Below are positions 30,655 to 64,000 of a stretch of DNA of 64,000 nt, one piece after another. The position numbers and the translations under genes are program-made. The stretch comes from Apostichopus japonicus (taxonomy: Eukaryota > Echinodermata > Holothuroidea > Aspidochirotida > Stichopodidae). The DNA lies in the NCBI RefSeq assembly GCF_037975245.1, contig NC_092582.1:4938001-5002000 (forward strand), read 5' to 3'. Numbering within the stretch: the stretch's first letter is position 1; every line of letters begins with the position of its first letter. The notes under the pieces are model-generated. The model saw only the letters and a program-made list of their open reading frames with translations, was not told where the DNA came from and did not search any database.

Positions 30655-33600
30655 ATGGACAGTACAGAAGCGATCGAAGAAGAAGAACGTGGAACTCTTT
30701 CCTTGAAAGATAAGCCAAGTGAATCTGATCAATTCCACCAGACTGCTAGCAATGGTCATGACGAGGTAGCTATTATTTATGGCATAGAGGATAGGCCTCC
30801 GTGGCCTACCGTCATATTGGGTGGCCTTCAGGTAAGACATGTAGGTCCTAAATGGTAGGAAACGTATATACTCGTCATTTTTTCTTCAACCAGCCATACC
30901 GTTATAATAACATTATAACTGTACTGCGTGACGTAGAGTCGCGCTCTGAAAGTATATAGTAGTACATTGCGTCTGTATAAAGCAGGGTTTCCCTACCCCC
31001 CCCCCCCACGAGCCCCCTGTGGATGCCAGAGCTGTCCACGAACTCCCAACTTTTCGAGACACGATCTGAGTCATAATACGCATAACAGTGCTTCGTTAAA
31101 GATCAAGTTCGTAGTGTAATATTGTAGAGTTTGTCGATAGGTACGACAAGTTTGTACATTACTAAATTATATGTTATATCAGATTTTAGTTCAACAACGA
31201 GTACTCTAGTTTTGATTTTCAGAAACGTCTCACAAAGCCCCTGAGATGTACTCACGCACCCCCTGGGGGTTCATGCACCCCAGCTAGGGAACCTGATATA
31301 AAGAGTGTTTACAAGGGCGGCGGAAGCACTTTTAATCTGGGGGGGGGGGCACCGACGTCAAAGGGCACTTTGGAGAAATTTGATTGGACTGATGCAGCCT
31401 GATATTAAGTCCCCTTTATAACTCTTATTGTATTATCTTATTTGCGTTTACACATCACTCCATCAACGCCCCCCCCCCCCCCTCAACGAAAAAATGCATA
31501 CTAGCACTGCAATATCCAATGTGCAAATTGGGAAACAAGGAACAAGTTTTCTTTCGAGTCAAAATGATGTGAAATCATGCTAATTGCTGAAGTAGGAATC
31601 TGCCGAATTAGAGTTTATTTCTTGTTAAGAGCTTAACAATTTTTTTCCATTCGAAACAGCTTTGAGAAATTCATTCATAGTCAGGGGCGTAGCCAGGATT
31701 TGCAAAGTTGTAGGCACGACTATACCTGAGCGGAGCGCCACCATCGGCTGGCGCGGAGCGTACAAGAAAAGTTTTTGGTTTTACAAACCCCCCAGATGGC
31801 AGGAAACGGCCCTTCCCGAGTGTTCATTCTGGTTCCCTGGCCTCTTGCTAACTTGAGACACCTCATTCAATATCACTTTTAAACCCCCAAAACCCAACTT
31901 CTGATACTTGTAGATACAAAGATAGGCCAGAAATGTCTTTGATACAACTATAGCCAGTAATTGTCTTTGATACAACTGTAGCTAGTAAACGTTTATCGAA
32001 AAGGCTGTTTTGGAACTTGGAACGCCGATCGTTAAACAACAGGCAACAAAGTGCTGCAGCTCTATACATATAAAGTCTGTTAATCAACGATAGGCTTATT
32101 TGACTGTGGAATGTTTCTCAACTTAAATTTTATCTGCGTAAACGGGTTCTTAACTAGATGTTAAAAAACTAACAAGATCGGATCCTAGTCTTTTTCGGCG
32201 GGTAGAGTGTTGAATGAAACGGCACGCGATAGAAATGACAGCCTAGATGACAGAAGAATAGGTCACCTAATTTAGCCATATTCTTGCTACGTTCATTTCA
32301 ATAGTTTTTCCTGTCTAGACCCTTAAACTCGTCCAGCAAGCTTATGGATTTGAATTATGGGTGTTTTTATAAAAAAGATAACTTGGCCAATGCTACAAAC
32401 TGGCTACGCCCCTGATAGTTCTAAATAAGGATTAGATCTCTTACTGAAATATCGCTGACCTAATAAGGTGATCAAGAATACAATTTTTATGTCGAAAAAG
32501 GGCACATTTTTAACCCTAGGAAAAGTGGGGGGGGCACGTGCCCCCTGTGCCCCCCAGGTTCCGCCGCCCTTGAGTGTTTACCAAAACAAAACAACATCTC
32601 AAGATTCAGAAAATGTCTGGCAAGAGATCGCGTCTGACAAGGATGTTTTGACCTTAACGACTTTTCACAGGAGTTATGAAGCTATAGGCTATATTCATAT
32701 GAGTAGAAAAAAATCCATTGGCTGTGTTGCATATGAGAACAATTGACTTCTATTTCCCTCCCTTTTTCAATCAGCACTTTTCGGCTTCCTTCAGTGGTTG
32801 TCTTATAATGCCATTGGTAATAGCGATCCCTCTGTGTTTCGACAGAGATAGGGATCTAACTAACCAACTGATCGGAACGTCGTTCTTCATGTGTGGAGTC
32901 ACCACGTTTCTACAGACATTCATTGGAACAAGGTAATCAATTACACAATCTTCATCCCCTCCCCCACCCCCCGCGATTCACCTCCCATCCACTCTAATGG
33001 CCGCGCTAATTCTATCCCCGCCTTTACACTAAGTATTACATTAACTCTCGCCTTGCTTTCTATGAAACGCTATACAATGATCACCAGAAATGAAGATGTA
33101 TAGCCTTAAAGGGTGTGAAGACTCGCGCAAAGAAACGTATAATGCCGGTAATCTGATCTAGTTTCGAATGAGGTGTAACAGAAGTGTTAGACACCACCAT
33201 CGATCCCAGAAAATACACACACAGCTTGCTACCGTCGGTAATAAGACACTAGTGTACAGTCAGTACATACAGCTGCGGTCATTGCCCACAGCACAGTGTA
33301 CAAACGATACAGCGATGGACATCTCAGGTCCAGCTAAAGATAACAAGGTATCACGTTTCATGAGTGTCTGCATTTTGTAGCGACACGAACAAAACCTCAC
33401 TTGCAAGCAACGGAAAGTTAACTTTTTCAGATGGCCGCACGCAGTTTGGGGCGAGTCTTCAATGCCTTTAAGACTAAAGGATATGTCGATGTAGACATAT
33501 TATATACTGATATATGTTACACAAGTATACTGATCGATATCTATATACATATACACTCATCCCTAAATATTCTCATTATGCAGCGACTAACCATATTTTT

Positions 33601-36600
33601 GCCTGGAATATTATTTTACATGTGAGACCGTTTGATCCATCTCTTCTTTGAATGTATCCGTCCTTGCAATTCGTCAAGTTATAACAGTACCTATTTCACA
33701 TTATATTTTGTAGACTACCGATAATACAGGGTTCCAGTTCGGCTTTTGTCATTCCAGCATATGTCCTTTTTAGTCTGTCAGGGCCCTGTCCACCTCCTGT
33801 AACAGGTGAATAATTTTTTGGTACATAAGGTTGTCGGTCTAGAACCATCGTTGTCAAGTTTCCTTCAATTGCAGAAGAACACCCGATCTATAAGCGTGTA
33901 ACCATGAAAACCATGGAGTACGTCACTCTTACCGACCTTGCAAAATTAAGAGGGGGGGGGGGGCTGCAGATTGCAAAGTCGGCAATGGCTCTACAACGTG
34001 GATCGCAAAGTCGGTAACTACTATCACGATTAGATTCGTCAAACACAGCAGCATACAGAAACGTTGTACTCAAAGCCGGAGCCAAAGTGAAGTAATCCGT
34101 ACTCAATGCATGCTAAGTTCTTCGATACTCCCCTCGTTACCATCTGGGAAACATTTCGTCCTTTAGTTTCGATTACCATCATTTTCGCTCGAAGGCATCT
34201 CACTGAAGAATTTTGTGGGTTACTTGGCATTCGATTTCTTCAGAAAATTATTTGAATGAGGCTTAACGGTGGTATACAGGAAGGGGTTAGGAGGTAATCA
34301 ACGTGGGTTGGGGTGGGGGTTAAGGGGTGAGGTTTGGGAGAGAACTGAAACATTATAAATTGCAACCAGATCAGTGCTACAAATGACTGTGCATGGCCTT
34401 GAAAAAAGTGGAGTAGCTTTCGCCTCGGTTGAAATTAACATCTTTCACGACGAAGAACATCTCGGCGTCTGCGGTAGCTCAACCTGACGGCGCCGTCGAA
34501 ACCAACGCCCCTGGAGGAGGGGATTATTTCCACAACTCATATCAACACATTGCACAGAGATATATGATTTAAAAATGGTACCTTCACGAAATCATTTGCT
34601 TAATATACCTTCCGTCCCTCCCCATTATCTGAAAAAAAGACAAAACTGAATCTTCAGCGCCAATTATGTATCACTTCGTGGACATTTTTTATATTAGGAA
34701 CTTCAAAAATAAGTTGAGAGACAGTTACAGTTAATAATTTTCATAATTCAATTAATTTTCATTTAATCCAGCGAACTCGACGGCAGAAGCTTCTCAAGTC
34801 CTTAGAGATGTCGCTTTTGATAGAATGCAAGAGGTCAGTACTTATGTAAACAACAAAATTTGTAATGATCTTTAAAGGGACATGAAATTAAAGGCTGCAT
34901 AGTAGCTAGGCTACTGCATCGTTGGGGGGGGGGGGGGGGCTTACTCACTGTTGTTGCACTGCGCTTCGAGCGTATTTTTTAACGGATACCAGCGCAACAC
35001 AAAATGTGTATTATTATTATAATTATTGCTAGTTGCTCAGTTTGTTTTGTCGGGATATTATCTTATGTGCTGTGTGTGTCTTGTTCATCATTTTCAGCCT
35101 TGGACTTAATTCTTACCTACCATGACAATGGATACATGTAATGTAGGCCTATACTCCAAATGCGTCATTAACGTTTACAGTAGCGTTGCAGGATTTGTTG
35201 TGCCTATACATGTATATGTAGGCCTATACTCTAAATGCGTCATTTACGTTTACAGTTGCAGGGTTCGTTGTGCCTAGCGACAGTAGTACAGTTTCTGCTT
35301 GGTTTCACTGGAGTGGTGGGGTTGTTACTCCAATTTGTCCGACCTCTAACGATCGCAACAACTCTCTTTCTTATCGGTATTCCGTTAATTCCAATTACGT
35401 CAGACGCTTGTGGAACGCACTGGGGAATTGCTAGTTTGTAAGTATAAACAACAGTTAAGATATAGCAGACATCACCCTGGTGGAAGAATATTTACCTGTA
35501 TGCTTCCTTCAAAGTATAGTCCTATGGTATGGCTTTTACCATTTTATTCGGAACATTACTTTTTATCTTATAGGAGAGTGTAAAAGTGTTGGTAAGATAC
35601 GGCGTACAATTCAATCGTCATTATATGCAAATTCAGAAATAGTTAGACATTTTGCATACAAGAATACGAACTGATTTGGTTACACATATGCACTTACAAT
35701 AAAAAAAATATACACACAGCATATTGTTCGCGTGATAAGGTTAGAAAAGGATCTTCAGATAGTCACCGTATATATGCATGTAGGTATAGTTTGCCGTCAT
35801 CAGCCGTGTCGATATTGACCTATACCTTCTCTGCATAGTTCAACCGAATCACACGGAGATTACAGTAACTACTGTAAATCTTTAAAGCTTTGTACCACAG
35901 TCAAAACTGGATCGTGCTGATAAATATATACCGGTAGCATGTGTTATTATAGGTTTACAGTAACAACTGACGATATGCGTAATCCCAACAAATGCATCAA
36001 ACTGGATTTGTTGTGGTTACATATATCCTCAGTTCTTACTGTAATCCGAATACACATGCTACCAATTTATAGCACGATCCAGTTTTCACTCTGGTACAGA
36101 ACTTTAAGATTTACAGTATAGTTACTGTGTTTTCTGTGACTATCGGGTGCATATTGTTGAATAGTTCAACAGTTGAATATTTCCATAGTCCCTTGATATC
36201 CTATAAAATACAATAAAGATAACCAGGGCCAAAAGAAATATCATTATATAAGATAACTCTATATTCCATCAGGCATGCAGTAAAATAAAATAAATATACA
36301 AATAAAATTTAAGCCTATTTGCATAAGCCAGCCATATTCGTTTCTAGTTTGCATGAAATTGGAGGTTAACATAAGCGGCTCCCAAAATTAACAGTGCCAA
36401 ATAAATTTGCTGTAAAACGTTTCAACAAGTGCAACAATAAAACTGATAAGCATTCTGTCTATCCAAGATACAGTGAAGTACCATCGTCCGTCGCCATGGA
36501 AATTTCTGATAAAAACAAGTCCGAGGTATTTTACCGGTAAAACCAAAAACACCAACCCCGTTTATCTCACCATCTGTGAATGCTAAAGATCATTTTCGTT

Positions 36601-39600
36601 TCGAAAAGTGACCATCTATATTTCTCAAGATTTACACTATTCAAAGTCACATGTGGACGTGAATGCAACTATGTACACCATTTTGTTCGTGCCGTATATT
36701 TAATGACCACAGAAGCGCTAACAGAATAAATCTTCACACCTTCATCATGGTTTTTTTGTTGATGGTAATTAATAATTCATATAATTACATATTGAATAAA
36801 GACAAAACTTTGTTATCTCTATTTAGGACCATCTTCCTGATTACACTATTTTCTCAGTTCTTGGACAAATATCCGATTCCTTTACCAAACGGAAAAAAGA
36901 TCAAAATATTCACCTTTTTCCCGGTAAGTGATTTTGGCATTGAAATTCCATACGTTTGTAATGACTGCCTATAGTTGCCAATATTCTCCGCATCTAGAAA
37001 TTTATCAATATGTATCTTGTTGGTATAGGAATATTGTTATTTTGTTCAGTGGAAAAATGATGTCCATACAAACAAATGCTAATAATATGTGGATTTGACC
37101 TTAAAAGATGCAGAAAGAAAACTGAACTCCAGCCAATGAAAAATATCCCTTTGATGCATCTTCGCTCCTCATAATATAGATATTACTAGCTATTGCGGTA
37201 TCCTGGACTTTTTGCATCATACTAACAGCGGCGGGAGCATTTCCCGACGACCCTACAGCTTACGGCTACAAGGCGAGAACAGATGTTTACAGTGACGTCA
37301 TACGTGATACTCCATGGTTGCGGGTACCTTATCCAGGTTACTTCTATGCACTTTTCTTACAATACATAAAACAAAATATCAATAATATATTAATACACAT
37401 GAATATGGATTAGATTACTTAGAGATGGAAAAAATGTCATACCAACCAAAAATTACCCTTAATTTGTATCTTTTGGGGACCGGAAAAGGGACAATATGAT
37501 TGTGGGCAAGATCTAACATCTGTGTCTCCGAATTCCTCCTCGGATTAACAAGTGATGAAGGTTGGGAGGATGGGGTGGGGAGGGGGGGTGGTGGTACGTG
37601 AGCGATTTGCTAAGCGAGGTTTCACTATGGCGACTTCCATTGCTTTGCTGAGATCATGTACATTTACTCAGCTGTAATCAAGGTCTTATCTTTGTATGTC
37701 GACAATGATAACGTCTCTGTCCTTACATGCAAAGTAATGCTATACAGGCTGAAAATTCATCTGTAAGTTTTATTATAGAGTTAATTCCTAGGCTTATTAA
37801 AGATAACTCCTTAAAATAAGTAGGGAATAAGAAATGACATTAGCTCTCTATACGTGAACAGCAACACCCTCCATGTACACTGCCACCATTACAGTATAGT
37901 GTACATCCGCTTGAAAGTTTATACCCGGAAATCGAAAGAGTTAAAATAACCTAATGTAATGCTTATTAAATGATTATTATCAGTTACCATCATTGTTTTT
38001 CTGCATTTGTGTGATAGAGCATAATTAAAAGTACAAATGATGTGAAAATAAGGAGGATTGAATGTGATATAAACCATTTTTAGAAATTATTTGGTTAATT
38101 GTTGACATTACTCCTAGCAAACAGACAAAAGGGTTGGTGTTCAGTATGATAAAACTTGTTCCTCTTCTCGCTCTAAAGCTAATCGAGGGGATGTAATTCC
38201 ATTTTGGTAAGTAGCTTCATCCACAAAACCGATATCAAAGGTGAAAAAGTCCCAATTATATATTATATATTTTGTACTTCCGGTTGAAACCATACCTCTT
38301 CAAATAATTCTCTAACACACTTTTTTTTTTTTAATTAGGTCAGTTTGGGAGACCTCGTGTAAATGTAGCCGGTTTTCTAGGGATGATCTCCGGTGTGTTC
38401 GCCAGCATCGTTGAATCAGTGGGCGATTATCATGGATGTGCACTTATAAGCGGGGTACCGCCACCGACGGTTGCTGCTATTAATCGGGGAATCGCGATGG
38501 AAGGTATCGGCTGTGCATTAGGAGGATTGTGGGGAGCAGCTACAGGATACACGTCTTACAGTAACAATGTATCTATTATCAGTATATCAAAGGTGAGTCA
38601 TGAAGTATTAGAGGGGATAGTCTGGCGGAGTAAGGTTAAAGGCATTGAAGACTCGCCCAAACCGCGAAAAAGTTAACTTTCTGTGCTTGCAAGTGACGTT
38701 TTGTTCGTGTCGCTACAAAATGCAGACAGTAATGAAACTTGATACCTTGTTATCTTTAGCTGGACCTGAGATGTCCATCGCTGTATCGTTTATACACTGT
38801 GCTGTGGGTATTGACCGCAGCTGTATGTGTGACTGTACACTAGTGTCTTATTACCGACGTAGCAAGTTGTGTGTGCATTTTCTGGGATCTATGGTGGTGT
38901 CTAACATTTCTGTTACACCTCATTCGTCAGATTACCGGCATTAGACGTTTCCTTTTGCGCGAGTCTTCACACCCTTTAAGGAGGAGTTGTAGATGAGGTA
39001 ACTTTACACTTTCGAATACCAGGGAAAGACTAAGTGTTTGGATTTGTCCACAAACTCAGAGTATTTTATGTGATATTTTATGGGATCAGATATTTTTATG
39101 GGAACGAACTGCAAAATGCACCTGTCTGATTTTCTACCTTTATCTTTTATCATAACAGATCGCAAGTCGCTCGGCCGCTTACTTTGCCGCAGGTTTCTAT
39201 ATTGTGTGTGGAATGCTAACCAAAGTTAACGCCCTGTGGGCATCAATGCCAGAAGCAATTTACGGGGCTGTCCTTGCCTGTACTATAGGTACCATATAAC
39301 ATCTATTCTTCTTTTAAGTTATTCACTTAACAATCCATATATAAATATATATAAAACTAAATATATATTATGATTAATATTATGATTAATATTATGATTA
39401 TGATTTTTCTTTTTTCTCTCCATTTATTCTGCTTTCTGTTACAGAATGAAAATAGAACATAACGTAATACTAATATAATAATATTACATCTCACAATCAC
39501 CAATGAATCAGGAAGAGGCACAGCCAAATGCTTGAATGGACATGCAAATACAAATCACTACAAACACGATGTAACAACAGCTAACGAAATAAGTCAACAC

Positions 39601-41030
39601 AACTAGAGAAAGCATTTTGAATTTGCATAAAATTAGCTTTGTTCTTTTTCTTCTTTGTTGTCTTGAAATAAATATACTTTTCAACTTTTATTGCAAACTT
39701 AAATTGATAAAAGAATTCCTCGATACAAGGATTGTTGTTTTTACGACTAGTTTGGTAAATATAATTTTTCACATGGAGAAATGGGTGGATTTATCCGTTC
39801 CCAAAGCCAAAAAAGATATCTTTTTTTTTGTGTGAAGGAAAATTGCTTTTCTTCAATAAAATAAAATTAGATGTGAACTGACAATCCCAAAACAAGTGCT
39901 CAAGACTTTCAACATGTGTTGTATAGCAGGTACGCTGGCTATTCTTAGTTTTACCCATACTAAACAAAAGTTTTTTAGTCGCAATTATTCCATGTAAAAT
40001 ACGGAATTGAAAATAACGCAGTTTTACATATGAAACAGTATAACTAGGCACTTAAAAAAAAAACTTGCCAGTCCTTCTCCGTAAAAACATTAAAATCTTT
40101 ATTCCATTTTACTATATAGGCTGTAGGTTTCTTGGTTATACGAGAAAGTATCTTAAAATAAGAGAAAGCATCTTAGAATAAATCTATTGAGAAATTGAAA
40201 TAGCATTCATGACCGTGTTAAACTAATAACAGTTGTGATTAATAGAGTGCAGGTTTTTTTTACAGCCAGCTCTTCTCCAATCCAGGGGAATACAATCAGT
40301 TAAACCAAAGTATAAAGAAAATGGGAATCAATTAATCTGAAACAGGCGCATGAACCTATTATAGGCCATTGGATTACCATTCTGATAAAAAAAGTCGCTG
40401 ACATATAAGACATTCCTCTTAAACAGGTGGTTATACATAACCACCGCATCATCTACACGAATAAAGGAATTATTCCAGATGAATTGGTTAAAAAAATTCT
40501 CAGTTGGACTGTTAAAGGAAATGTCACACCAAGCATATGCAACTTGATTAACAAACGCGTTATTAATATTGTGAATATCTTCCTTAGCACAATTTTTGCC
40601 AAATGGACCTAACGCAATGTCGAAAAAAATTCAGGGACCATGCATATCATTACAGTAACGTTTAACCCAGGTACCCTTTAAACTCTTAATAAAACTTTCC
40701 ATATGTGTTACTTGAAATCCACCCTCACTAATAGGACTGAGACTTGTTGACCGTTTAATTTTTGTTCCTGTTTGCCAGACCAAATAAAAAAAAAATACTT
40801 TCCAGATCCTTAATAAACTTACTCTGAGGACTAGGCAACACAAGAAATGAAAAACAAGCTGTGGAAGGGCAAACGTTTTAACAATATGGTTGCGGCCAAA
40901 AAGTATTAAAACACTGGACGCCCATGTTCTAAGGCACTTTTTCAATCTAGAAAGTTTAGTAAGAAAATGTATTATTATTATTGTTATTATTATTATTATT
41001 ATGATATATATATATATATATATATCGTCA

Positions 41031-41062
<32 letters not shown>

Positions 41063-43404
41063 ATTCTTATTCATATCATTAGATAAAAGCAGAGAAATTA
41101 GAAAATAACACATGACTTATAATTGAGAAATAATGAGTATACTGTATTAGAAAATATATCGGAATTTTCGGTCCCCCTGGGTTACCAGGTGGTTACAATG
41201 TTTCCCACTTTTTGTGTAGGAATAACTATCAGGAGGTTCCATGTTAAGTCAATGTCCTGACATATGGGTTGTGTATGTGTGTGTGTGTGGGGGGGGGGTG
41301 AGGGGTCGAAATGGGGCTAGGAACGGGATTAGGGAATATTGTACCTGATTATTTCCCTCTTTCGTAACTATGCTCTTTACCCCAACTTATGTTTTCAGGT
41401 AGGCAGATAGTGACCAGTTGTAACTATATAAATGAATCAATATGTACCGGTCCTTCGTCCAGGTGAAACTTTCCAAGGATGATCCATTATTCGATACCAT
41501 ATTTTTCCCCTTTGTTTTTGGTTTCTCTTTTACAGGCATGATAGCCTCAATTGGTTTTGCTAATCTGAGTTTTGTTAAAGTGGACACGTCGAGGAATCTC
41601 TTCATTCTTGGCTTCGGCCTCTTCATTGGCTTGGGAGTGCCGGATTATCTCGCGAAAAATCCAGGAGCAATTCAAACAGGTAATCATCATACAATGGGTA
41701 AATATTAAATGATACGTCATTGAAACGGATTGAAATTAGTCAAAATTCCATGCAACTTCAACCCTAACTGAAGTCCTAGCTATATACAACTCAAACTCTT
41801 ATCTCTTCGTCCCTAGGACTTGTAATCGTGACTCTAAATGAATTTAATATTTAAAGTTTGTGTCATCATTAAAACAACAGTATTCACTTTGCCTCGTTAT
41901 TACCAAGCGACGTACTATCCACGCGAACGACCTTCCAATCTCACTCATTTATTTGATTAGTTAACAAAAACCATGGCAGCAGTAATACCCGTTTCTTTCA
42001 ACCTATTCAACATCAAAATTGTTGTAATTTGCTGTAATATTGTTATTTTATGATTTGCAAATCTTTTAATTGTTTGTCCTAATTTGATTGTGGTTACTGC
42101 AATGGTTGTTTTATTATCGTTATCGGTGAAATTATATATACTACCACAAGACCGTGCCTTTATCGATTCAATGACATCATTACTAACTTACGGTTAATTT
42201 GTTCATTGGGTAGCTTGAGTGTGTCATTTGAGGCTATGAAAAGTTATATAGACAGATTCCTGTTTTCATTTTTTTCAATTTTACATTAGTTCTAGTATGC
42301 TTCATTGATTATTATTATTTACTATTTCAGTCTGTCTTATTTTACTTCAAGTCACTCTGTTACTGCCGTATTAATCTAAGCCTCCCCAAAATATAAAGTT
42401 TTAATCACATGAATTTCTTTTCTTTCTGTATTAGGTTCAGGAGTCATTGATCAGATTTTCACTGTGGTACTCGGGAGTAATATGTTTATTGGTGGCATTA
42501 CTGTTTGCATCCTTGACAACCTCGTTAGAGGTAATATGTGACAGAGTACCCCACCCCTCTCCTCCCCTGAAATAAGGGACCGCACACATTTTCACCTAAC
42601 TTGTCGGAGAATTGCATTGGCACCAGCCCAAACACAGAGAACCAGTGTGTGGGTATGAAAAGCTAGCGCGTGGATACGGAGAGGGTCGCAGTTTAACGAA
42701 GAGGGAGTGTGTGATAGGGGAGTGGGTGTTGGTACGGGGAGTGGGTGATGTTGTGGGTGTGGGCATGGTACGGATGCGGATAATATATGGGTACAGAGCT
42801 TGTGTGTATATATTGAGAAGAGATGGGTACAAAAATGGTGGAAGAATGGAGAGGGATTGGTTAAGAAGGTGTATGCATGTTCAGGATTTTGATCGTAATG
42901 TTGGCTAATTTTGATTCACCAGCTTTCCTTAACTTCATCAAACCACTTTCCAATTTTGACCACAAAGTGTAAAGAAAAAAGAAAGAAATCCTTACTTCCC
43001 AGTGGAACGTACTCAAAATAAATTCACTAAAAAGCCTATGATCATATACTGTGGTAGGTCTTCAAAAACACTAGTAGTAAAAGACGACAAGAGGAGGGAG
43101 GAGGCCTGGGGACGTTGGCCAAATTTTTACTCCCTTTTCGATTACAATGATGCATGCTCATGTTGGCATCTCTGCTTGTTATCATCCAGGTACAGACGAA
43201 GAGAAGGGGGTTAACTGGAGGCAACAGATGGCCAACCAATGCAAGGAAGACGGCGAGGGTGAACATTCTTGTTATGATCTACCGTTTGGTATGGACTGGA
43301 TACGAAGAACGCTGTGGACGCAGTACTTTCCTTTTAGTCCAACGTTTAAAGGTTTCACACCTCTGATCCGCCGTCGATATCGAAGTGCATCGTCTGGTTT
43401 TTAA
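30655..43404 (+). CDS. SLC23A-like: SVCT-like nucleobase-ascorbate family transporter A
   Basis: Twelve coding exons: 30655-30831, 32775-32932, 33714-33805, 34772-34833, 35256-35437, 36827-36923, 37180-37336, 38339-38592, 39159-39288, 41536-41679, 42435-42530, 43190-43404 (stop), 587 residues, the usual length for SLC23 carriers. A soluble acidic N-terminus leads to YGIEDRPPWP, the family entry motif, then many hydrophobic segments with RLPIIQGSSSAF, FVRPLTIATT, ESVGDYHGC (334-342), PPPTVAAINRG, and the C-terminal YDLPFGMDWIRR and FSPTF. Known SLC23A1/2 proteins carry ascorbate with sodium across the plasma membrane. The family signature, P-N-x-G-x4-T-K in SVCTs, reads NNVSIISISK here (384-393), so the conserved Gly is Ser and the substrate is uncertain. 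The start is the first in-frame Met after an acceptor-like tttacag at 30610-30616, suggesting a 5' UTR exon further upstream. An AATAAA lies at 43770-43775. Introns hold hAT elements, two TTAA MITEs, a foldback and a LINE remnant. First of three tandem copies. Confidence 0.93.
30983..31295. mobile_element. Small hAT-like MITE (transporter A intron 1)
   Basis: Ends CAGGGTTTCCCTA and, inverted, CAGGTTCCCTA; flanks gtataaag (30975-30982) and atataaag (31296-31303) match at seven of eight bases. C/G tracts lie just inside the ends. Confidence 0.75.
31312..32572. mobile_element. hAT-type element with perfect 8-bp duplication (transporter A intron 1)
   Basis: Left end CAAGGGCGGCGGAA and right end TTCCGCCGCCCTTG; exact duplication agtgttta at 31304-31311 and 32573-32580. 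Its left duplication directly abuts the duplication of the preceding element. No transposase frame; contains another element at 31682-32414. Confidence 0.9.
31682..32414. mobile_element. hAT-like element nested in 31312-32572
   Basis: Ends CAGGGGCGTAGCCAG and, inverted, the same; flanking atagt on both sides is a 5-bp match, shorter than the hAT norm. Internal ctgagcggagcgccaccat block matches the element at 23133-25093. Confidence 0.8.
33110..33467. mobile_element. TTAA MITE family, copy 3 (transporter A intron 2)
   Basis: A 358-bp copy in the same orientation as copy 1, flanked by TTAA (33106-33109, 33468-33471). Both inverted ends and the central stretch with gatggacatctcaggtccag are shared with the other copies. 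Confidence 0.92.
35143..35277. repeat. Tandem duplication of the exon 5 acceptor region, transporter A
   Basis: gtaggcctatactc...gcgtcatt...acgtttacag followed by gttgcagg-ttgttgtgcct appears at 35143-35207 and again at 35218-35277. The second copy contains the true exon 5 start (35256); the first keeps the cag acceptor and a mutated copy of the first about 20 exon bases. Confidence 0.85.
35840..36150. repeat. Foldback element with about 100-bp inverted arms (transporter A intron 5)
   Basis: The left arm from acagtaact (35862) through aaactggatcgtgct and ggtagcatgtgt is repeated in inverse complement up to gttactgt (36128). Weaker pairing (tcaca) extends outward. About 55 bases separate the arms. 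Confidence 0.85.
37893..38195. repeat. Dispersed 290-bp repeat, copy 2 (transporter A intron 7)
   Basis: Same order of blocks as copy 1, preceded by gtgtacatccgcttgaa, which is also found before copy 3 (gtgtacatccgctcgaa). Same orientation as the other two copies. Confidence 0.8.
38640..38975. mobile_element. TTAA MITE family, copy 4 (transporter A intron 8)
   Basis: A 336-bp copy, TTAA at 38636-38639 and 38976-38979, beginning only 47 bases after the exon 8 donor. Orientation as in copy 2. Confidence 0.92.
39560..40985 (-). mobile_element. 5'-truncated L1/Tx1-like LINE remnant (transporter A intron 9)
   Basis: Minus-strand translation with several frameshifts and stops gives typical LINE ORF2 C-terminal sequence in order: RNHIVKTFALPQLVFHFLC, SPISEGGFQVTHMESFIKSL, WCDISFNSPTENFF, YIVKWNKDFNVFTEKDW, and a reverse-transcriptase-associated zinc-binding end with LRYFQFRILHGI and ESLEHLFWDC. 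The reverse transcriptase core itself is missing at the 5' side, where the sequence gives way to TTA/TA/CGTCCT microsatellites. Dead copy, antisense to the host gene. Confidence 0.85.
40970..41065. repeat. Compound microsatellite (TTA)n (TA)n (TCCTCG)n
   Basis: Three adjoining simple arrays at the 5' limit of the LINE remnant. Translates to poly-Asp/Glu or poly-Ser, not a gene. Confidence 0.95.
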
Positions 43405-49888: not shown

Positions 49889-49986
<98 letters not shown>

Positions 49987-52900: not shown

Positions 52901-54351
52901 CTAGGTCAGATTACCGGCATTAGACGTTTCTTTTTGCGCGAGTCTTCAAACCCTTTAAGTGTAGTGTACTGTTAAGTGTATTGCACTGTAAAGTTATAAA
53001 ATGTACGTCACGATCATTAAGCGTTCAGGGTTTGTTTATTAACAGTTAGTATAAATTGATTGAGTCATTACGATATTGGCCTACGCACTGCCCAACACTG
53101 GCAAAATGGTAGCCTATTACAACCAGAAAACAGTAAAGGACATTAGAAGGGCTGCACGGAACTCAAACGAATGATAAACTTATCGTAGTAGTCCACGGTG
53201 CCCGGGTTGCGATATTTTTCCCCAAACAGGTTTGCAATTGTGTGTAAATAGTCGCTCATGATTGGTCGGAAAAGTAACCTCATCACCAAAGAAACCTTCA
53301 CTTCGAGGTTACCAAAATGTCTGCATCCATTCGTTGCAACGAAGATATACCCGCTCAAAATAACCCGAGGCTTTTCGTATCTTTGTAATCGGTTCTGACA
53401 TATTGAGCACACTAGTTTTTAATGATTTGTATCATCTATTATCGATGTTTGATCGAAGCTTCCTGTGAAGGCATTCATCTAAAACATCGCACAGTGAAAG
53501 TTTCGTACAGGGTGCATCACACTTGTGCTGTATGCCTATATGTATTATAACTATGTAAACAGTGCAGTAACGGAAATATATCATACTGTAGACTATACTG
53601 TTTTGCGTATATTCATTCAAGACTCGTGAAACTCGCGTCATGAAGTTAATTTTAGTGTACCCATTCCACGAAACGAATTCTGATTTCAATAGAACGGCTC
53701 ACGATTTTACTGCTGTGTTGTGAAATACTGGTTCTTCAAATGTGCACATAAATCAGTTGAGTTCTAGATTGAAGGATTAACCAACGTGATCTGAGTTCAT
53801 GGATCGTCACGTCGTTACTCTTGCTATAGATGGTTTCAATGGGTCCTTTTAATCATAGACCTCCTACCAATGGTAATGTCTGCTGCACCTATTTATTTTT
53901 CTTATAACCTTATCATTTGCTATAACTTTCATTGTTTCAGTTGTATCTTGCAGATGATCTTATACTCACAATTCCTGAATAGGTACAGCATTCCCCTGCC
54001 AAAAGGCAAGCGACTGGCTATTTTCGCATTTTTCCCGGTGAGTACAAAGAACTAACATGCCATTATCTTCGACTTGAACCATAAGTTAGTTCAGACTTAC
54101 CTTCGTAAGACTTCTTTCTTTCAAACGGGAGTGGGCTACTTAATGGATCTTGCGGGCTACACGAAATTTGAAAAAAAGGGGAATCTACATGGTAACGTCA
54201 AAAACAAACAAAAACAAATCATAATATTTTCATATTTCGAAGCCTATATATATAATACATATATAGCCTATATATACATAGCCTATTTGAAGCCTATTTA
54301 TCCGATACATATAGTCTATATATTCTATATGTCTGTCTGTCTGACTGTCTA

Positions 54352-54384
<33 letters not shown>

Positions 54385-57300
54385 AATTGAAATTGTAGTG
54401 AGTTGGAAAAACTAAAACAGTGAAAGAACTTCCAGCCTTCACCTGGATTCGAACCCGGGCCTCCCGCTTTATATACGGACACCCATACCACTAGGCTATG
54501 GACGCTGATTGTATACGTCCAGCGGTTCGAAACGGTAAGGAAGGTCGTAATTCCACTGTAGGCGTTTCCATATGTATCGAACAATGCTAGTTGTGTTATG
54601 GTAACATATTTTGACTTACTCTAGAGATCAAACGTGATGCAAACCAACTCGAAGTCATTTGTGATTCCTAAAGCCTATATATAGGCTATATATATACATA
54701 TTGTCAACACCGTATTGATATTTCTGTACAGGCTCTGCTGGCTTTAACTATAACCTGGATTCTTTGTCTCATCCTGACATCGGTGGGGGCTTTCCCTGAC
54801 GACCCGGCACAGTATGGTTACTTTGCACGAACTGATATTTACAATGATGCTATCAGAAATGCGGTGTGGTTTAGAATTCCGTACCCAGGTATGCACTGTG
54901 GTAAATAGGTTACCTGAGAGTTACTAGAATTTTTGTTGTTCGAGGGTGATGGAAAACGAGTTGGCACAGTAAGGACACGCAACTATTATACAATGGAATA
55001 TCAGAAATGCTCAGTTGTTTAAAATTCCGTCCCAAGCATGTATTGGACAGACATGTGAATCGGTTAGGACAAGCAGGGACGTAGTATGTTCATCTATGTG
55101 CTAATTAACTGGTTATTGAATTCAAATTATTGTAATCTTGTGGAGTGTCGGCTAAAATAATACGAAATGTAAGTATGTATGTATTTTAGATCCTCCTGCA
55201 AGCAGGAACTGCCATCATTGGCTTATCAAAGCCGCAAGCTGACCGAAGTCAGTCTCTTAGATTCATTTTTAACGTCCAGGATTATGAATTGTCAATTGTC
55301 AACAACTCTGTAACTGGACGACATACATTAATCTTGGAGTGACTCGAACTCGGGACCTTTCGATTGAAAGGCCTTGGCGTTAACCACTGAGCTAAAACTC
55401 CTTGGAAATTGATAAAACAAACATAGAAAATCCTCTATAGTAAACACGTATAAATGTCAAGTACTATTTGATAACTGTAAGTGTTATAACTTATATCTGT
55501 ATAGGTCAGTTCGGTGTACCGGCAATAAGCGTGGCTGGATTCATCGGCATGACAGCCGGTGCTGTCGCAAGTATCGTGGAATCTGTTGGCGATTATCATG
55601 CATGTGCACTCATCACTGGAGAACCTCCACCACCGGTACATGCGATTAATCGCGGTGTGATGATGGAGGGATTGGGCTGTATAGCTGCTGGACTTTGGGG
55701 AGCACCTTCTGGTTACACGTCGTACAGTACAAACATCTCTATAATTAGCTTAACGAAGGTAAAAAATACAATCACACCACTTTAGTATGTCGTGGCGTTC
55801 CGGATTCCTGTATGTACCCATATACGGCAATGTTGACATCATTGTTATATTGCTAAATATTACTAATAGATTCAGACGTCTGATATTTGATAAAATGTTT
55901 GGAATCTGACTACAGATGTCTGGAAATTTACAGAATAAAAAGTTAAAAGGAAATGCTTCGAATGATAAAGACTTGTCGGAATAACAATGATCAGTGTGTG
56001 GTGGTGGTGTTGAGATTGGAGACTGGGAGAGGAGGGGGGGGGGGATGGGGCTGGGAGAATATATAATATTTACTACTTGATATGATACTAAGTAATATTG
56101 TCAAGTCTCAAAATGATTACTTCAATTTCTACTAAAATGAACACATGTCAATGAAATAATTGGGATTCATTCTTCAATACTTTACAATTTAGGTGTGAGG
56201 ATTATTAACTTAAATGTTATTAGTTTCTAAAATCAATTCATAAATGTTTAAGTTTTTGTTTCACAGATCGGTAGTCGTGTAACTTCTTATATTGCAGCGG
56301 GACTATTCTGTTTCTGCGGAGTGATATTTAAGTTCAGTGCCTTGTGTTCTTCAATACCAGCTCCAGTGTACGGCGGAATATTTGCAAGTACAATAGGTAG
56401 GACTACAATGATACATTCATTACAAGAAGTTTTAAACCCCTCTCTCCTCGCTCTCTACCAACGTTTGTCCCTTTTTTATGATAAAATACATGTTTATGCA
56501 TAATACGGTCTTAAAATCGCTGGTCTCGTTTTCGATATAGAACATTCCAAAGTTTGTTGCGTTTCTTATTACATGAGAAATGAGAAATAAGACTAATTTA
56601 TAAAAGAAATATAAGGGGCGGAAAATATTATGCCTAAAAGAGAAAGTGGTTATAGAAGTACACTTTGCTGTTTGCTGTTTTTTAGCAGATTTTTATACCC
56701 TTAGGTCCACAGAATATAGCGGACAATAATGAAAAATTCACACTACACACCAAGTTTTCAAAATTTTGCTAAAGGTATCAAGGGCAAATTTATTTGCACG
56801 AATAAATATGCCATCGAAAAGATCTTGTGATTTTGTTATATACCCTTGAGTAAAATAATGAAGACCGAAAAAGATAGATTTTCCATATAAATACTGTCAG
56901 ATATTTGGCGATGTACATTATCTAAAATGCGGCATACCTGAAAACTATAGTTCATTTTCCTCATTTTCAAAGGAATGGTTGCTTCCATCGGTTTCGCTAA
57001 TCTGAGCTTCGTCAAAGTGGACACGTCCAGAAATCTCTTCATCATTGGGATTGGTATATTTATGGGAGTTGGAGTACCGGACTATCTCGACAAACATCCA
57101 GATTGCATCCAAACAGGTCTGTTTGTCTGTTTGTCTGCCCTGTCTCTGTAGCACCTGTTCTTTTCCCGCCCAAACTTGTTTCAGTCTACCATATATGTCC
57201 ACACAAGAAGCCTATGTGTTAGTGAGATGAATATGCTATGAATTCACTATCATGATAAGTTTACGCTTATTGATAAAAAATAAATAAATAATGAACCGCT

Positions 57301-60300
57301 AATCCTTTTCAATTTCAAACGTTCGATTGACAGGTGTTGATGTTCAGGACTTAATGTTGTTTTGTTTCCCTCTAAATCATGAATTTCTTCTTTATAATAT
57401 GAACAACAGCTGGCATTAACACACTAACACATTCCTGATGTTTATAAGGTGCAGCGGTTTAAACCCGACCAGCTGCCACATTCTCTGTTCTGTGTAGTAT
57501 GCAAATTTGCTGATCTGAAGAGGCGTTGAGCGGATTCTTCCTTGCTATTGGTTAGAGATGATTGTTTCTCATCATCATTAGACAGCAAATACAAACTCTC
57601 AGAAATCGGAAGATGATCGTTATAACAGATTCAAACCAGTCTTTTAAGACTGGGATGACAAATCATTTGTATTATTACGAACGACTAAGTCGCTCTTTGC
57701 TATTCAAATTACCTAATGTCTGGGGAGCTAGGCGAGAGTAGCATCTAAAAATAGTAAAACTTACATTTGTGCAGCTGTACTATACTTGCAAATGGCAACA
57801 GCCAATGGAGAGTAAGCGCGATATTGGAAGTTGACCAATCGGCGCCACACACGTGTCAGTAGCTGAGCGATGTAGTCTTTAAGCTTGCAATGGGGGAGGC
57901 ATGACCAGTGGCGTCGCCATTCATTTCAAACTGGGGGCACAGGGAGCGCACAGCACTTAATTAGGAGGGGCATAGTGTGTATTTGTAAATGCCGTCCTGG
58001 GAGGAGTCTAAGGGGAGGGTGTGTGAAAGTTTTGATTAATTAAGGGTTAAGATTTTTTATTATTTTTTATTATTGTCATCTTTAATGAGGGTAGTCCTGC
58101 TTTCTAGAGGAGCACTGCTTTCCAGAGGAGCCCTCAAAGATGCAATCTGGTGCTATATTTAGCAACTTGAATGAACTTTTATGTTCCAGAATTTTCGGGC
58201 TTAGTCTGTCCGAAAGTTATGTTTTTTATGAGGCGGATAAAAAAGGTATACACATAATGGAAATAAATGCATTTGCTTTGATAAAGTTTTTTAAATAAGG
58301 GCGTTGAAATATAAATTTAAATTCATGCAGGGTAGTAGTGAAGTTTAAGTACTAGCGGTTTACGCCTGAGCCTCTGTGACCTAGTTAGTGAGAAAACAAC
58401 TGGTTATTGTGATGGTCGATGGAAATAAGTTTTACTGAATAGAAAAACATAATACATTTCTTCCTTTGAAAACAAAAGTTTTCGTTTGAGTATTTTTTTT
58501 TAAACTACAAATCGCATCTTGCGGGTACCGGAGGGGGGGGGGGCACGATAATTTTGGGTGGGCACGTAACATAACTGCTGAAAAAAATATTTCAAGAATA
58601 CTTTTTCATTAAGCGTGAATGTTAAAGCTCTAGGGGTGTTTCTAACTACAGACATGTTTGATCTTCTTTGTGGCTTTACATGTGACACTAATTACTATTT
58701 AATCCCGTCTTTTCCCCCGTTCCGTCTCTTTATTTCAAAGGTTCCGTAGTTGTCGATCAAATTTTGAACGTTGTATTGGGAAGTAACATGTTCATTGGTG
58801 GAGTTACAACTTGTATTCTCGATAACTTAGTACGAGGTGAGTACGACAAATTAAAACATAAATGACATTGAAGTTTGACGTTGAATAATTCTATAGTTTA
58901 GGTTTTGAATTTTGAATTTGTTCTTCTCGTCTGGTAAACCGCCATGTGTAGGCAACTATTGGTGACACCTGCCTTCAAGCCAGAGTTTATACTTACACAA
59001 TCACCAGAAGATGTCTGACATTTATAAAATAATGACTTTTTTTATGGAAGAAGAACTTACACTTAGAGAGAATGGACGACAGAACAACTTAAATTGGTCT
59101 GACACAGAGAGTTATGATAATAGACTTCCTGCTTATACTCACGTACAAAAATAGGTAAACAGTTAATACCCGATAGGAAAGCCTTTGTTAAAAGATATTC
59201 GAAATTTTTGGTAAAGAAGAAAGTTTTATAATTATATTTATGTTCAAAGATCAAAACCTCATTACCAATATACGAACGTGTTACACCCGTGGTATAACGA
59301 CTTTACTGATGGATGAATGATTTAAACTTACTGAGTATAAACCTTTACTCAGAGATGAATGATTGAAACTTAATGAGTAACAACCTTTACTCACAGATGA
59401 ATGGCTTTAACTTAATGTCTAGCAACCTTTATTCACAGTTGAAGATGTAAACTGACTGAGTAGCAACCTTTACTCAGAGATGAATGATGTAAACTTAATG
59501 ACTAACAACCTTTACTCACATATGAATGACTTAAACTTACTGAGTAGCAATCTTTACTCACAGTTGAATCATGTAAACTTATACTGCGTAGCAACCTCTA
59601 CTCAGAGATGAATGATTTAAACTTACTTACCGAGTAGCAACTTCTACTCAGATATGAATGACTTAAACTTACTAGGTAGAAAAGGGTTTCTCACTCATGA
59701 ATGACACACACTTTGGGAGTAATGGCAGGTAACCCCGGAATAACAAAATTCTCTAAGAATAACTAGCATTAGAAATGCTTTGCATGAGTGACTCTAATAT
59801 GGTCTCCACATTTTGCTACAGTTTGATCTTTCCTGCATATCACTCTCGATCGAGTGTCTTTCCATTTATTAAACACTAAGTAGTCAGCCGATTCTCATGG
59901 CTTTATCTGAGTTAAAACTGGTAAAGGTGAGTACCCGCTAATCAGTTAAAACGGATGTATGTTATAATTTCTTAACGTATGTGATATTTGTGACCAGTTG
60001 CTATTGAGAAGGACATACCTACAGAAAATACTATACACACAATCCTATGCATAAGGATTGACTGGTCTAACCAGACTACACTAAAGGTTTCGCCAATAAT
60101 TTCTTCCAAACTATAACAGAATGTAGCTGCGCGTTAGTGCAAAACGTTTAAAATCTGCAATTGGAGCCATCTTTACAAGGTATACTTACTAGTCAAAATA
60201 AGTACTGTTTTTTAGACTCCTAATCAGTCATTAGTTGAAAAAGCCTTTGAGTAATGAATTCGTCTTAGCAACTTTTCCACAGTACAACATCCGCGGACAG

Positions 60301-60733
60301 GTCTAATATGTGTTACGGTGTTATAACACAGTTCAGTTTATACTGATTAATGTTTGCCTCCTATTCACAGTATAATCTGACCAAGTCATGTACATTGAGT
60401 GAAGTAGTAAACCATATTATTTTTAAGTTGAATATCTCTTCTGTTTTAATAAACTTATGCTACAAGTTTAAATTTTATACCTAAATTTACTTCTTATCAG
60501 GATCACCAGAGGAGAAGGGAACCAACTGGAGGCAGCAGATGGCTGATATTTGCTTTGATGAAGATAAATACATCGAAGAATCAACCTGCTACGATTTACC
60601 GTTTGGTATGGATTGGATAAGAAGAACATATTGGACTAAATATTTCCCTTTCAGCCCAACCTTTACTGGTATCAGGCTTAGACATCGACGACTTCAGTCA
60701 GAGACGAAAGATGTTATAGCGATGAGATTGTGA
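47536..60733 (+). CDS. SLC23A-like: SVCT-like nucleobase-ascorbate family transporter B
   Basis: Twelve coding exons: 47536-47715, 47985-48142, 48959-49050, 50286-50347, 51113-51294, 53941-54037, 54732-54888, 55505-55758, 56267-56396, 56973-57116, 58741-58836, 60501-60733 (stop), 594 residues. Exons 2-11 have exactly the lengths of those in transporter A (158, 92, 62, 182, 97, 157, 254, 130, 144, 96) and the same phases, so the two arose by duplication. Motifs: MYGVNDRPPWP, RLPIIQGPSAAF, RFVRPITIATT, ESVGDYHAC (335-343), PPPPVHAINRG, then signature TNISIISLTK (385-394), which keeps the T-K end but has Thr for Pro and Ser for Gly. C-terminus has YDLPFGMDWIRR. Expected to be a polytopic plasma-membrane sodium-coupled carrier, by family. 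Translation starts at ATGGCGGAC. The exon 2 acceptor is preceded by aaaaag, with the pyrimidine tract about 15-30 bases further up; the identical exon length in A supports it. Introns carry two SINEs of one family, two of another, a TTAA MITE and long TA arrays. Confidence 0.93.
49311..49542 (-). mobile_element. tRNA-derived SINE, family 1, copy 4 (transporter B intron 3)
   Basis: Minus-strand copy with a gtatgtatgtattttag tail at its left and the tRNA-like head ending at 49542. It sits immediately beside the family 2 element and TA array. Confidence 0.85.
49562..49604. repeat. (TA)n microsatellite, left of family 2 element
   Basis: About 21 TA units ending exactly where the family 2 element begins. 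Confidence 0.95.
49605..49890 (-). mobile_element. tRNA-derived repeat, family 2, copy 1, embedded in (TA)n
   Basis: The minus strand contains a tRNA-like core at about 49657-49727: A-box TAGCCTAGTGGTTAGGGTG, a CCGC/GCGG anticodon stem with a 7-base loop, and B-box GGTTCGAATCCC; acceptor arms pair at six of seven positions. About 285 bp is shared with copy 2, including sequence on both sides of the core, so it is a SINE-like element, not a free tRNA gene. Both ends abut long TA arrays. Confidence 0.8.
49890..49987. repeat. (TA)n microsatellite, right of family 2 element
   Basis: Nearly 50 TA units, able to extrude as a cruciform. It begins exactly where the family 2 element ends. Confidence 0.95.
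52588..52954. mobile_element. TTAA MITE family, copy 5 (transporter B intron 5)
   Basis: A 367-bp copy, TTAA at 52584-52587 and 52955-52958, inserted in a short repeated stretch of gtgtattgcactgtt units (about 52515-52580 and 52960-52992). Orientation as in copies 2 and 4. Confidence 0.92.
54327..54382. repeat. (CTGT)n microsatellite in transporter B intron 6
   Basis: tctgtctgtctgac...ctgtctgtctat array directly left of family 2 copy 2. Confidence 0.9.
54385..54668 (-). mobile_element. tRNA-derived repeat, family 2, copy 2 (transporter B intron 6)
   Basis: Co-linear with copy 1 over its whole length, including the tRNA-like core (about 54434-54512) and flanking gttcgaaacggtaagg and actctagagatcaaac blocks. 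It is flanked by a CTGT array on the left and TA-rich sequence on the right, as copy 1 is by simple sequence. Confidence 0.8.
55171..55401 (-). mobile_element. tRNA-derived SINE, family 1, copy 5 (transporter B intron 7)
   Basis: Minus-strand copy with a gtatgtatgtattttag tail. A short stretch around ctcgcgaagatg present in other copies is missing here. Confidence 0.85.
59311..59690. repeat. Minisatellite of about 42 bp x 9 in transporter B intron 11
   Basis: Units at 59312, 59354, 59396, 59438, 59479, 59522, 59565, 59608 and 59653 follow gatgaatgatttaaacttac then tgagtagcaacctttactca. They differ by several substitutions, so the array is old. Confidence 0.88.
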
Positions 60734-62210: not shown

Positions 62211-64000
62211 ATGAAGAGCTGTCAAGAAAAAACTGTGGAAAAATCCAAAACTTTGTCTTTAGAAGACAATCCGAATAATGTCGAACCCCACCCAGCTGGA
62301 GATGATACATGGCCAACTGGGAAACGCACTGTCATGTATGGAGTCAACGACAGGCCTCCCTGGCTATCGGCAATACTAATGGGAATCCAGGTACGTATCA
62401 CGATAAAAGACAGGAAGACAGAAATTGCACACAAGAAAAAATATTTAAATGTTAGTCTCAGTTCTAATTCTAAGTTTCAACCTTAACTTTAATACAATTT
62501 GTAATGTGATGTAATGAATAGAATTTGTCTTGCAAATTACTAAAGATGTCATTGCTGTAACATAAATGCCTTTAATCGCCGAACACTGACCATGTCTTTA
62601 GTTTCTCACATATTGTGTTGAAGAGGCTTGCCATTGGAATATATATATGGTTTTGTTTCAAATGGCGTCGCTTTAATACTATGTGTAATGTGATGTAATG
62701 AATAGGATTTGTCTTGCAAATTACTACAGAGGTCATTGCTGTAACATAAATGCCTTTAATCGCCGAACACTGACCAGGTCTTTAGTTGCTCACATAGAGA
62801 GGCTTGCCATTGGAATATATTATGTGTTTTGTTTCAAAATGGCGTCGCTGTCTATGCTTTGTAGAAGGATTTAGGAAGCGATATTGCTGCACGTAGAGTT
62901 GTTTAGCTTAAAAGAGCTGCACGGAATGCTTTCCTGAATAAGTCAACACGTGTGTTGTTGTATCGATTCTGACTACACAAAGCGAATGTTTTAAGCTTTT
63001 GCTAAAAGAATTAGTAGGAATATCTAATTTCAGGATGTCGTCCTATATGAAGTCATAATGGATGAACGTATATTCGGGCTAGGAATCAAGTTCTCGTTAA
63101 AGTTCCAAGTTTTAAGATGATCATTTCCTTTGTTGACACACATTTCTTCTGAAGAATCGTGAATCTTTTTTTTGCTTTTTATTTAATAGGACTTGATAAA
63201 TTAATCAAATAGATTACAGATTAATCAGTGTCGCAAAGTTACATAAAACTATTTTTAATTCTGGTTACTAAACGAAACCTTAAATTATAGAAGCAGACAT
63301 GTTAACCTATAACCGCTAATCAATTTTAAGCTTTTTTTTTGCTAGTCAATGTTATGTCTTCGATGAGTTTATTAAAAATGTTTTGGTTTCGTTTGGAAGT
63401 CATCAAGAAACACTTAAAACGTGAGTTGACTGGTTACGTAGCTTTATCCCACATCCTGCCCGCAACAAAATCTCTTGCAAAAACAAAATCACAAATGCAG
63501 TATCTGCATGATCGTCTGTAAACCCAGAGGACTACTGAGATAAAGGTTGTCATCGAGGAAGAGCAATTTGGGTTGTAAGTCAAGAAAACGTCTGCGCACT
63601 CTTAATGTTATCATCACGTTATGGAATACAATGTTGCATGGACGCATGCATACACACACACACATGTGATTTCGTTATTTCAGTGCAACCGTTTCTTATA
63701 ACGTTCTACAGCGCTCTCAAAATGCAATCTTGTTAGTTGGGGTGTGCATTTCTTTTCATATTGACACTAAAGATTCCGAAAAGAGGATATAGCACATTTA
63801 TGTTTACACCCCTCCCCCCCCCCAAAAAAAAAAACAAAAAAACTCTAGTTCCAATTTTGGATATGAAACCTTTTATTGTTCTCTTCTTTGCGTTTTATTT
63901 CACCTATGGCAGCATTTCTCCTTATCCGCGACCTTTTGCTTCTTGGTGCCCTTAATCTTGGCCCCCTACGTGTGCTTTGATCAAGACCGTGAATTACTAA
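62211..64000 (+). CDS. SLC23A-like: SVCT-like transporter C, 5' end only (runs off window)
   Basis: Exon 1 is 62211-62390 (60 codons, MKSCQEKTVEK...), the same length as exon 1 of B, ending ILMGIQ before a gtacgt donor. Its second half (HPAGD, then RTVMYGVNDRPPW) is nearly the same as in B and clearly different from A, so C is the closer sister of B. Exon 2 starts at 63913 after a cag acceptor (HFSLSATFCFLVPLILAP, then FDQDREL) and is cut by the window end after 88 of an expected 158 bases. No frameshift or stop is seen in what is visible. The remaining ten exons, and any further copies, would lie to the right. It is the third head-to-tail member of the array, 1.48 kb after the stop of B. Confidence 0.88.
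62488..62855. repeat. Tandem duplication of about 180 bp in transporter C intron 1
   Basis: gtaatgtgatgtaatgaata ... atgcctttaatcgccgaaca ... gaggcttgccattggaatat ... aatggcgtcg is present at about 62488-62672 and again at about 62673-62855, with a 10-bp gap in copy 2 near cacata. High identity suggests a recent event. Confidence 0.88.

Follow-up and report, generated by a model that had tools for sequence, protein, structure and literature searches.

This analysis concerns a tandem array of solute carrier genes in a 64,000-nucleotide stretch of Apostichopus japonicus DNA, hereafter the window (NCBI RefSeq assembly GCF_037975245.1, contig NC_092582.1, positions 4,938,001 to 5,002,000 of the forward strand). 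At least three SLC23/NAT genes lie side by side on its + strand: copy A (30655-43404; 12 exons, 587 residues) and copy B (47536-60733; 12 exons, 594 residues) are complete, and copy C, which starts at 62211, is cut by the window edge. A sequence-only reading of the locus had described two complete SVCT-like copies in a tandem array, a description borne out by the 12-exon models and their PF00860 matches, with the partial copy C in addition. Judged by sequence, A and B are SLC23/NAT genes with an altered substrate pocket. No additional copy was detected upstream by tblastn with A and B as queries over the whole window (E ≤10), and the strongest hit not belonging to an exon of the three copies (E 0.027) falls immediately after the B stop.

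Models of A and B were assembled by hand, without transcripts, from homologous open reading frame (ORF) pairs common to both copies and from splice sites read by eye. In A, exon 1 (30655..30831), which also has tblastn homology to B exon 1, provides the start codon and ends in GGLQ, after which exon 2 (32775..32932) opens with the His of the Gln-His (QH) motif and exon 3 (33714..33805) encodes the third transmembrane helix (TM3), where the Ser121 codon (33739-33741) aligns with mouse Phe119. Exon 4 (34772..34833; 62 nt, in the loop after TM3) was missed at the E-value cut-off for ORF pairs and recovered through its match to B exon 4 (50286..50347), with ANSTAE...RMQ in A and ANSTAT...RMQ in B. 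Exons 5 (35256..35437), 6 (36827..36923), and 7 (37180..37336) lead to exon 8 (38339..38592), which spans TM8 to TM10 and holds ESVGDY (38413-38430) together with the TM10 signature NNVSIISISK (38563-38592); exons 9 (39159..39288), 10 (41536..41679), and 11 (42435..42530) follow, and exon 12 (43190..43404) carries YDLPFGM and the stop. The remaining exons of B run correspondingly, i.e., exon 1 (47536..47715), exon 2 (47985..48142; again opening with the His of QH), exon 3 (48959..49050; TM3, with the Ala122 codon at 48984-48986 aligned to mouse Phe119, and a weak GTTGG donor), exons 5 (51113..51294), 6 (53941..54037), and 7 (54732..54888), exon 8 (55505..55758; ESVGDY at 55579-55596, signature TNISIISLTK at 55729-55758), exons 9 (56267..56396), 10 (56973..57116), and 11 (58741..58836), and exon 12 (60501..60733; YDLPFGM and stop). 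In each copy, 11/11 introns are GT-AG with phases that agree between copies, the reading frame has no internal stop and a single terminal one, and exons 2-11 are equal in length between A and B in 10/10 cases. A six-frame search located SNNVSIISISK at 38560 and NISIISLTK at 55732 (both +), ESVGDY at 38413 and 55579, and YDLPFG at 43273 and 60590; the signature letters and the intact ESVGDY and YDLPFGM motifs that had been reported for both copies were thereby confirmed.

Family membership is clear from profile and structure-database searches. PF00860 (Xan_ur_permease) matched A at E 4e-74 and B at E 5e-78, covering positions 3-385 and 3-386 of the 389 in the profile. The best PDB match was mouse SVCT1 (E 3e-144 for A, 1e-136 for B), with human SVCT1 second; UapA and UraA also matched, A at E 9e-7 to 8e-3 and B at E 3e-8 to 5e-7. 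Identity to mouse SVCT1 is 42.5% for A (534 positions) and 41.1% for B (533 positions), and the two copies are 62% identical to each other (581 aligned positions). Six NCBIfam nucleobase permease models match each copy, all below their cut-offs. The Gln-His of TM1 is kept (LQH in A, IQH in B and C), as is the TM8 motif E-x-x-G-D/H/G of NAT/NCS2 = SLC23, present as ESVGD in A and B. In TM10, the canonical signature [Q/E/P]-N-x-G-x4-T-[R/K/G], in the sense of PMC5972032, is departed from at position 4 and Gly7 in both copies and at Thr12 in A. The SSSP that marks SVCT1 and SVCT2 is replaced by SYSN (A) and SYST (B), and of the S-Y-S-E that precedes Asn5 in SVCT4/SNBT1, SYS is kept with Asn (A) or Thr (B) in place of Glu; the loss of the TM8 motif that characterizes SVCT3 is not seen, ESVGDY being retained in both.

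Along the TM10 signature, position 2 corresponds to S389 of mouse SVCT1, position 4 (the selector) to P391, Gly7 to G394, and Thr12 to T399. For this signature, A has TSYS-NNVSIISISK and B has TSYS-TNISIISLTK, and alignment over the mouse T387-K400 segment gives TSSSPNIGVLGITK for mouse SVCT1, TSYSNNVSIISISK for A, and TSYSTNISIISLTK for B. P391 is replaced by Asn (A) or Thr (B), G394 is Ser in both copies (codon TCT in each), and T399 is Ser in A and kept as Thr in B. The selector and Gly departures to which the sequence-only reading drew attention are real, and they map onto SVCT1 at P391 and G394; overlooked in that reading were the replacement of S389 by Tyr in both copies and that of the TM3 Phe (mouse Phe119) by Ser in A and Ala in B.

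Eleven contact or ion residues, from the mouse SVCT1 residues listed around vitamin C and sodium in PMC10011568, were compared (62, 66, 117, 119, 341, 345, 387, 388, 389, 390, and 391). Six are kept in A (S117, E341, D345, T387, S388, and S390), with the changes C62S, T66C, F119S, S389Y, and P391N; B keeps 5/11, with C62A, T66C, S117P, F119A, S389Y, and P391T. The side-chain ligands of the sodium site Na1 are retained 3/3, as E334, D338, and S383 in A and E335, D339, and S384 in B; their mouse counterparts E341, D345, and S390 each abolish transport when changed to Ala (PMC10011568). The disulfide cysteines C78/C136 are also kept in both copies. In the same mouse study, C62A, S117A, T387A, S389A, and P391A all lowered uptake, with Km/Vmax near wild type for C62A and P391A and almost no activity for S117A, T387A, and S389A. 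Since P391A keeps its Km/Vmax and S389A is nearly inactive, P391N/T alone provides little information on ascorbate, and S389Y provides more. Phe or Tyr at position 2 is associated with nucleobase NATs and Ser with ascorbate NATs, and Gly7 and Thr12 are reported to act on kinetics, not on cargo choice (PMC5972032). The selector change is thus not the strongest sign of altered cargo, and the Tyr at the S389 equivalent says more. The claim that the pattern signals altered selectivity stands insofar as the signature departs from [Q/E/P]-N-x-G, with the weight moved from the selector to S389Y, and the accompanying suggestion that the substrate may not be ascorbate is likely correct.

Phe112 of human SVCT1 binds the second sodium and serves as the outer gate (PMC11219872); it corresponds to mouse Phe119 by the same 7-residue shift that relates Glu341 to Glu334. 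UapA F155, rat SNBT1 F124, and SVCT2 F170 occupy one binding-site position (PMC3405029), which we infer to be that of mouse F119, with the HMMER alignment pairing UapA differently in that loop.

As a control, 13 prokaryotic relatives were aligned together with both copies and mouse SVCT1. One came from the genome contig collection (99 pattern matches, of which this bacterial protein was the one true relative) and 12 from the 29 records of the plasmid collection, all archaeal or bacterial; none of the 109 pattern matches in the viral contig collection was a true relative. The 17 plasmid records left out comprised six from Halorussus, two each from Listeria and Neisseria, and one each from Natrinema, Haloarcula, Enterococcus, Prevotella, Shewanella, Aeromonas, and Citrobacter. 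The set is small and prokaryotic, with 6/13 members from haloarchaea, and its counts are informative on distant relatives, not on animals. Gly7 is present in 13/13 and in mouse SVCT1 (14/14), Asn5 in 13/13, and the TM3 Phe in 12/13 and in mouse; position 2 is aromatic in 12/13, TM8 Glu occurs in 13/13 and TM8 Gly-Asp in 10/13, and QH is seen in 12/13, as the remaining model begins past that point. At the selector, Glu occurs in 8/13, Gln in 4/13, and Asn in one (L008), and position 12 is Thr in 9/13 and Ser in 4/13. Among very distant relatives, the Ser at position 7 and the loss of the TM3 Phe are thus unusual. A natural motif departure in its own right is L008, an NCS2 protein of Rhodococcus, which combines the selector Asn (ANNVG) with a TM8 segment, ESTASI, that has no Gly-Asp. 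Nearest among the prokaryotic relatives found are L002-L007, six haloarchaeal proteins named "solute carrier family 23" that share 28.8-31.0% identity with copy B across 75-90% of its length. They carry a TSY-x-E signature and, unlike A and B, have the selector Glu, Gly7, and the TM3 Phe in 6/6. Three of their genes (L002, L003, and L006) are plasmid-borne and lie near a molybdopterin molybdotransferase gene (MoeA), that of L006 also near an amidohydrolase gene; such neighbours would fit purine breakdown.

Differences between A and B by codon position number 179, 99, and 345 over 581 codons. As dS between them is saturated (NG86 returning no value), codon-position counts were used together with the proportions of nonsynonymous and synonymous differences, pN 0.228 and pS 0.770, the latter saturated. 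A and B are old copies that diverged under purifying selection, and the earlier claim that both genes are maintained holds on this count as well as on their open frames and correct splicing. Copy C is closest to B. Its exon 1 (62211..62390) and the visible part of exon 2 (63913..64000, cut by the window end, with the signature motif beyond it) were placed by tblastn homology; C shares 68.5% amino-acid identity with B over 89 codons and 40.7% with A over 86 codons, and DNA identity between the exon 1 regions of C and B is 87% across 145 bases. For B and C, dN is 0.20 and dS 0.33 (NG86), over 89 codons that are largely N-terminal tail, too short and biased a sample to judge selection on C.

Our preferred reading, which we consider fairly probable, is that A and B would be Na+-coupled SVCT4/SNBT1-type carriers with a remodelled pocket. 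With Tyr at position 2, and with SYSE present in the majority of basal deuterostomes in the PMC9233358 set, both copies look like SYSE-type carriers in which Glu has become Asn or Thr. From their 41-42% identity to mouse SVCT1, the products are predicted to be dimeric 14-helix elevator-type membrane carriers, on a scaffold that, with TSYS and an aromatic residue at position 2, appears to be of nucleobase/SVCT4 type, and by homology the solute would sit between TM3 and TM10. Na+ at Na1, where the TM8 Glu and Asp and the TM10 Ser are all kept, would drive the uptake of a small polar solute, presumably across the plasma membrane and with altered specificity. As the selector, Gly, and the TM3 Phe are replaced, the pocket is probably larger and would contain neither the Glu/Gln grip on nucleobases nor the Ser/Pro pair for ascorbate. 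It thus appears to fit neither published type, having Tyr at position 2, no Glu, Gln, or Pro at position 4, and a small TM3 residue, and the substrate is probably not ascorbate handled in the mammalian manner. As for the cargo, our best guess, held loosely and at even chances, would be a purine-like or urate-like solute taken up with changed specificity; a quite different solute is conceivable, ascorbate improbable, and loss of transport more improbable still, gradings that overlap with those given to the rival explanations below.

The origin of vitamin C carriers from nucleobase carriers in animals is still to be explained, and cargo in this family is usually read from a few TM10 residues. 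Maintained natural carriers that possess neither the nucleobase nor the ascorbate residue set would serve as a ready test of which positions set cargo and Na+ number. They also call for caution, in that invertebrate SLC23 genes should not be annotated as vitamin C transporters by name.

Several points weigh against the preferred reading. Because the mammalian SVCT1 chains of the PDB were the sole animal relatives compared, the subfamily placement of A and B would follow from motif type, not from a tree. The purine-like guess is itself weak, given that neither copy has the Gln/Glu through which UapA and SNBT1 bind purines (PMC3405029). F119A substantially lowers the activity of mouse SVCT1, so loss of the TM3 Phe might weaken function, and R213, which mouse SVCT1 needs, is Ala in A and B. 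A selector Asn is rare, with a precedent in 1/13 relatives, and its occurrence in L008, itself without the TM8 Gly-Asp, hints that this position can drift; the position-12 Ser of copy A is ordinary and says nothing. A separate animal NAT subfamily, set off from the SYSE type by joint change at four pocket positions (the selector, the helix Gly, the TM3 Phe, and the TM1 contacts), with one Na+ at Na1 and a solute new to the family, is a tentative alternative to SVCT4/SNBT1-type carriers. Its single-Na+ cycle is predicted because neither copy retains the TM3 aromatic by which human SVCT1 binds its second Na+, a prediction limited by the mouse SVCT1 paper (PMC10011568), which puts the second sodium elsewhere than at the TM3 Phe.

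If the two copies were canonical SNBT1-like nucleobase or urate carriers, in which Asn or Thr replaces the selector Glu with little change of cargo, the SVCT4-like TSYS, in which position 2 is Tyr, the Na+ coupling of SNBT1 (PMC5974720), and the selector Asn of L008 would all be accommodated; we regard this as unlikely, since UapA requires its Gln at this site to bind purines and transports less when that residue is replaced even conservatively (PMC3405029), and since Gly7 and the TM3 Phe have changed as well. Still less probable is that these are ordinary invertebrate ascorbate carriers, with N/T-N-x-S as one of several working versions of the pocket. Echinoderms are argued to need a vitamin C carrier even with no SSSP in the set (PMC9233358), human Ser382 and Pro384 make no direct substrate contact, yet their mutants are weaker (PMC11219872), the near-normal Km/Vmax of mouse P391A points the same way (PMC10011568), and the Na1 residues are kept; against these stand the Tyr of A and B at a position where mouse S389A is nearly inactive (PMC10011568) and the further changes to the TM3 Phe and the TM1 contacts. 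Descent from an ascorbate-type ancestor that lost its Pro was likewise rejected, as A and B do not look like departures from one: the Tyr at position 2 is of the nucleobase/SVCT4 type, and SYSE is the published majority among relatives.

Loss of transport, whether the products took on another role (decoy or regulator) or the genes are incipient pseudogenes, would recall the divergent SVCT3 group, reported to carry neither ascorbate nor nucleobases (PMC5972032), and two (F119 and R213) of the four interface-I residues whose change to Ala lowers mouse SVCT1 activity differ non-conservatively in both copies. We nevertheless find it very unlikely, given the intact frames and splice sites, the strong excess of silent change, the retained Na1 and QH, and a TM8 motif that SVCT3 lacks; a pseudogene in particular was rejected on the open frames, sound splice sites, and purifying selection. 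That the pattern is a gene-model or assembly artefact is barely credible: the GTTGG donor of B exon 3 is weak and the models are hand-built without transcripts, but the motif lies within one uninterrupted exon in each of two copies that share 62% identity and both carry the position-7 Ser, and internal exon lengths agree 10/10, and the artefact was rejected on these grounds.

The window holds other elements besides the array. Within gene B introns, a repeat pair (49597-49922 and 54378-54701; 85% identical) contains tRNA-like sequences on the - strand (49653-49727 and 54433-54506), and these are probably tRNA-derived short interspersed elements. A dispersed repeat of ~370 bp occurs five times in both orientations (16498-16872, 19121-19522, 33105-33471, 38665-38980, and 52584-52959), three of the five in A/B introns, and a second family of ~250 bp is found at 10587-10851, 17319-17563, 44445-44701, 49308-49542, and 55168-55401; minisatellite-like local direct repeats lie in the last intron of B (59295-59673) and the first intron of C (62487-62849). 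Upstream of the array, three + strand ORFs (8464-9042, 9540-9854, and 11880-12338) weakly match successive parts of AAA_12 (PF13087; E 8e-3 to 8e-5, below cut-off) and are probably exons of one helicase-like gene; the last of them had no PDB match at E ≤0.01. The - strand segment 19677-20129 matches PF00378 (E 4e-10) and, below cut-off, NCBIfam PRK08272 (E 8e-30), which identifies it as an exon of a gene in the crotonase/enoyl-CoA hydratase family.

Part of this picture is already in print, i.e., invertebrate SLC23 expansions (PMC5972032, PMC9233358) and invertebrate SVCTs without the ascorbate motif (PMC9233358). In the PMC9233358 set, SSSP is absent from every basal deuterostome, protostome, and non-bilaterian SVCT; as these invertebrate proteins lack the ascorbate motif and are mostly SYSE, a pocket not of the vertebrate type was to be expected in A and B, and N/T-N-x-S without the TM3 Phe is their unusual part. 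No paper was found that describes N/T-N-x-S together with the TM3 change, in a search whose scope excluded figure alignments, supplements, and subscription journals; none was found for SYSN with SVCT, or for SYST with SVCT and nucleobase-ascorbate, and neither word occurs in the main text of PMC9233358. Transport by an echinoderm SVCT was not reported among the matches listed, as judged by titles and abstract starts.

Among known systems, SVCT1/SLC23A1 (mouse 7YTW, human 8JEW) shares with A and B the family, 41-42% identity (to mouse), the TM8 ES-x-GDY, the Na1 ligands, QH, the disulfide cysteines, and a YDLPFGM-type C-terminal motif; A and B differ from it by S389Y, P391N/T, G394S, F119S/A, C62S/A, and T66C and have no SSSP ascorbate motif. 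Human SVCT1 also transports urate, with low affinity (PMC10011331). SVCT3/SLC23A3 and the fungal UapD-like NATs, compared by description, depart from functional motifs as A and B do; SVCT3 has lost the TM8 motif (PMC5972032) and has a TM10 nearer the ascorbate type, whereas in A and B the TM8 motif is retained and TM10 begins in a nucleobase-like way. UapA of Aspergillus nidulans belongs to the same family (its PDB entries matched A at E 9e-7 to 1e-5 and B at E 3e-8 to 1e-7). Its Q408 and G411 positions are changed in A and B by alignment, and its F155 position would be changed as well; substitutions of UapA G411 alter or block movement (PMC3405029). SVCT4/SNBT1 (rat Slc23a4) and the SYSE-type SVCTs of basal animals have S-Y-S before the selector as A and B do, and Na+ coupling would be expected to be shared with them. 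Rat SNBT1, which PMC5972032 gives as the sole characterised member of SVCT4, is a Na+-coupled carrier of nucleobases and urate (PMC5974720), and A and B differ from this type in the selector (Glu to Asn/Thr), in Gly7 (to Ser), and in the TM3 Phe (to Ser/Ala), for which rat F124 would be the equivalent.

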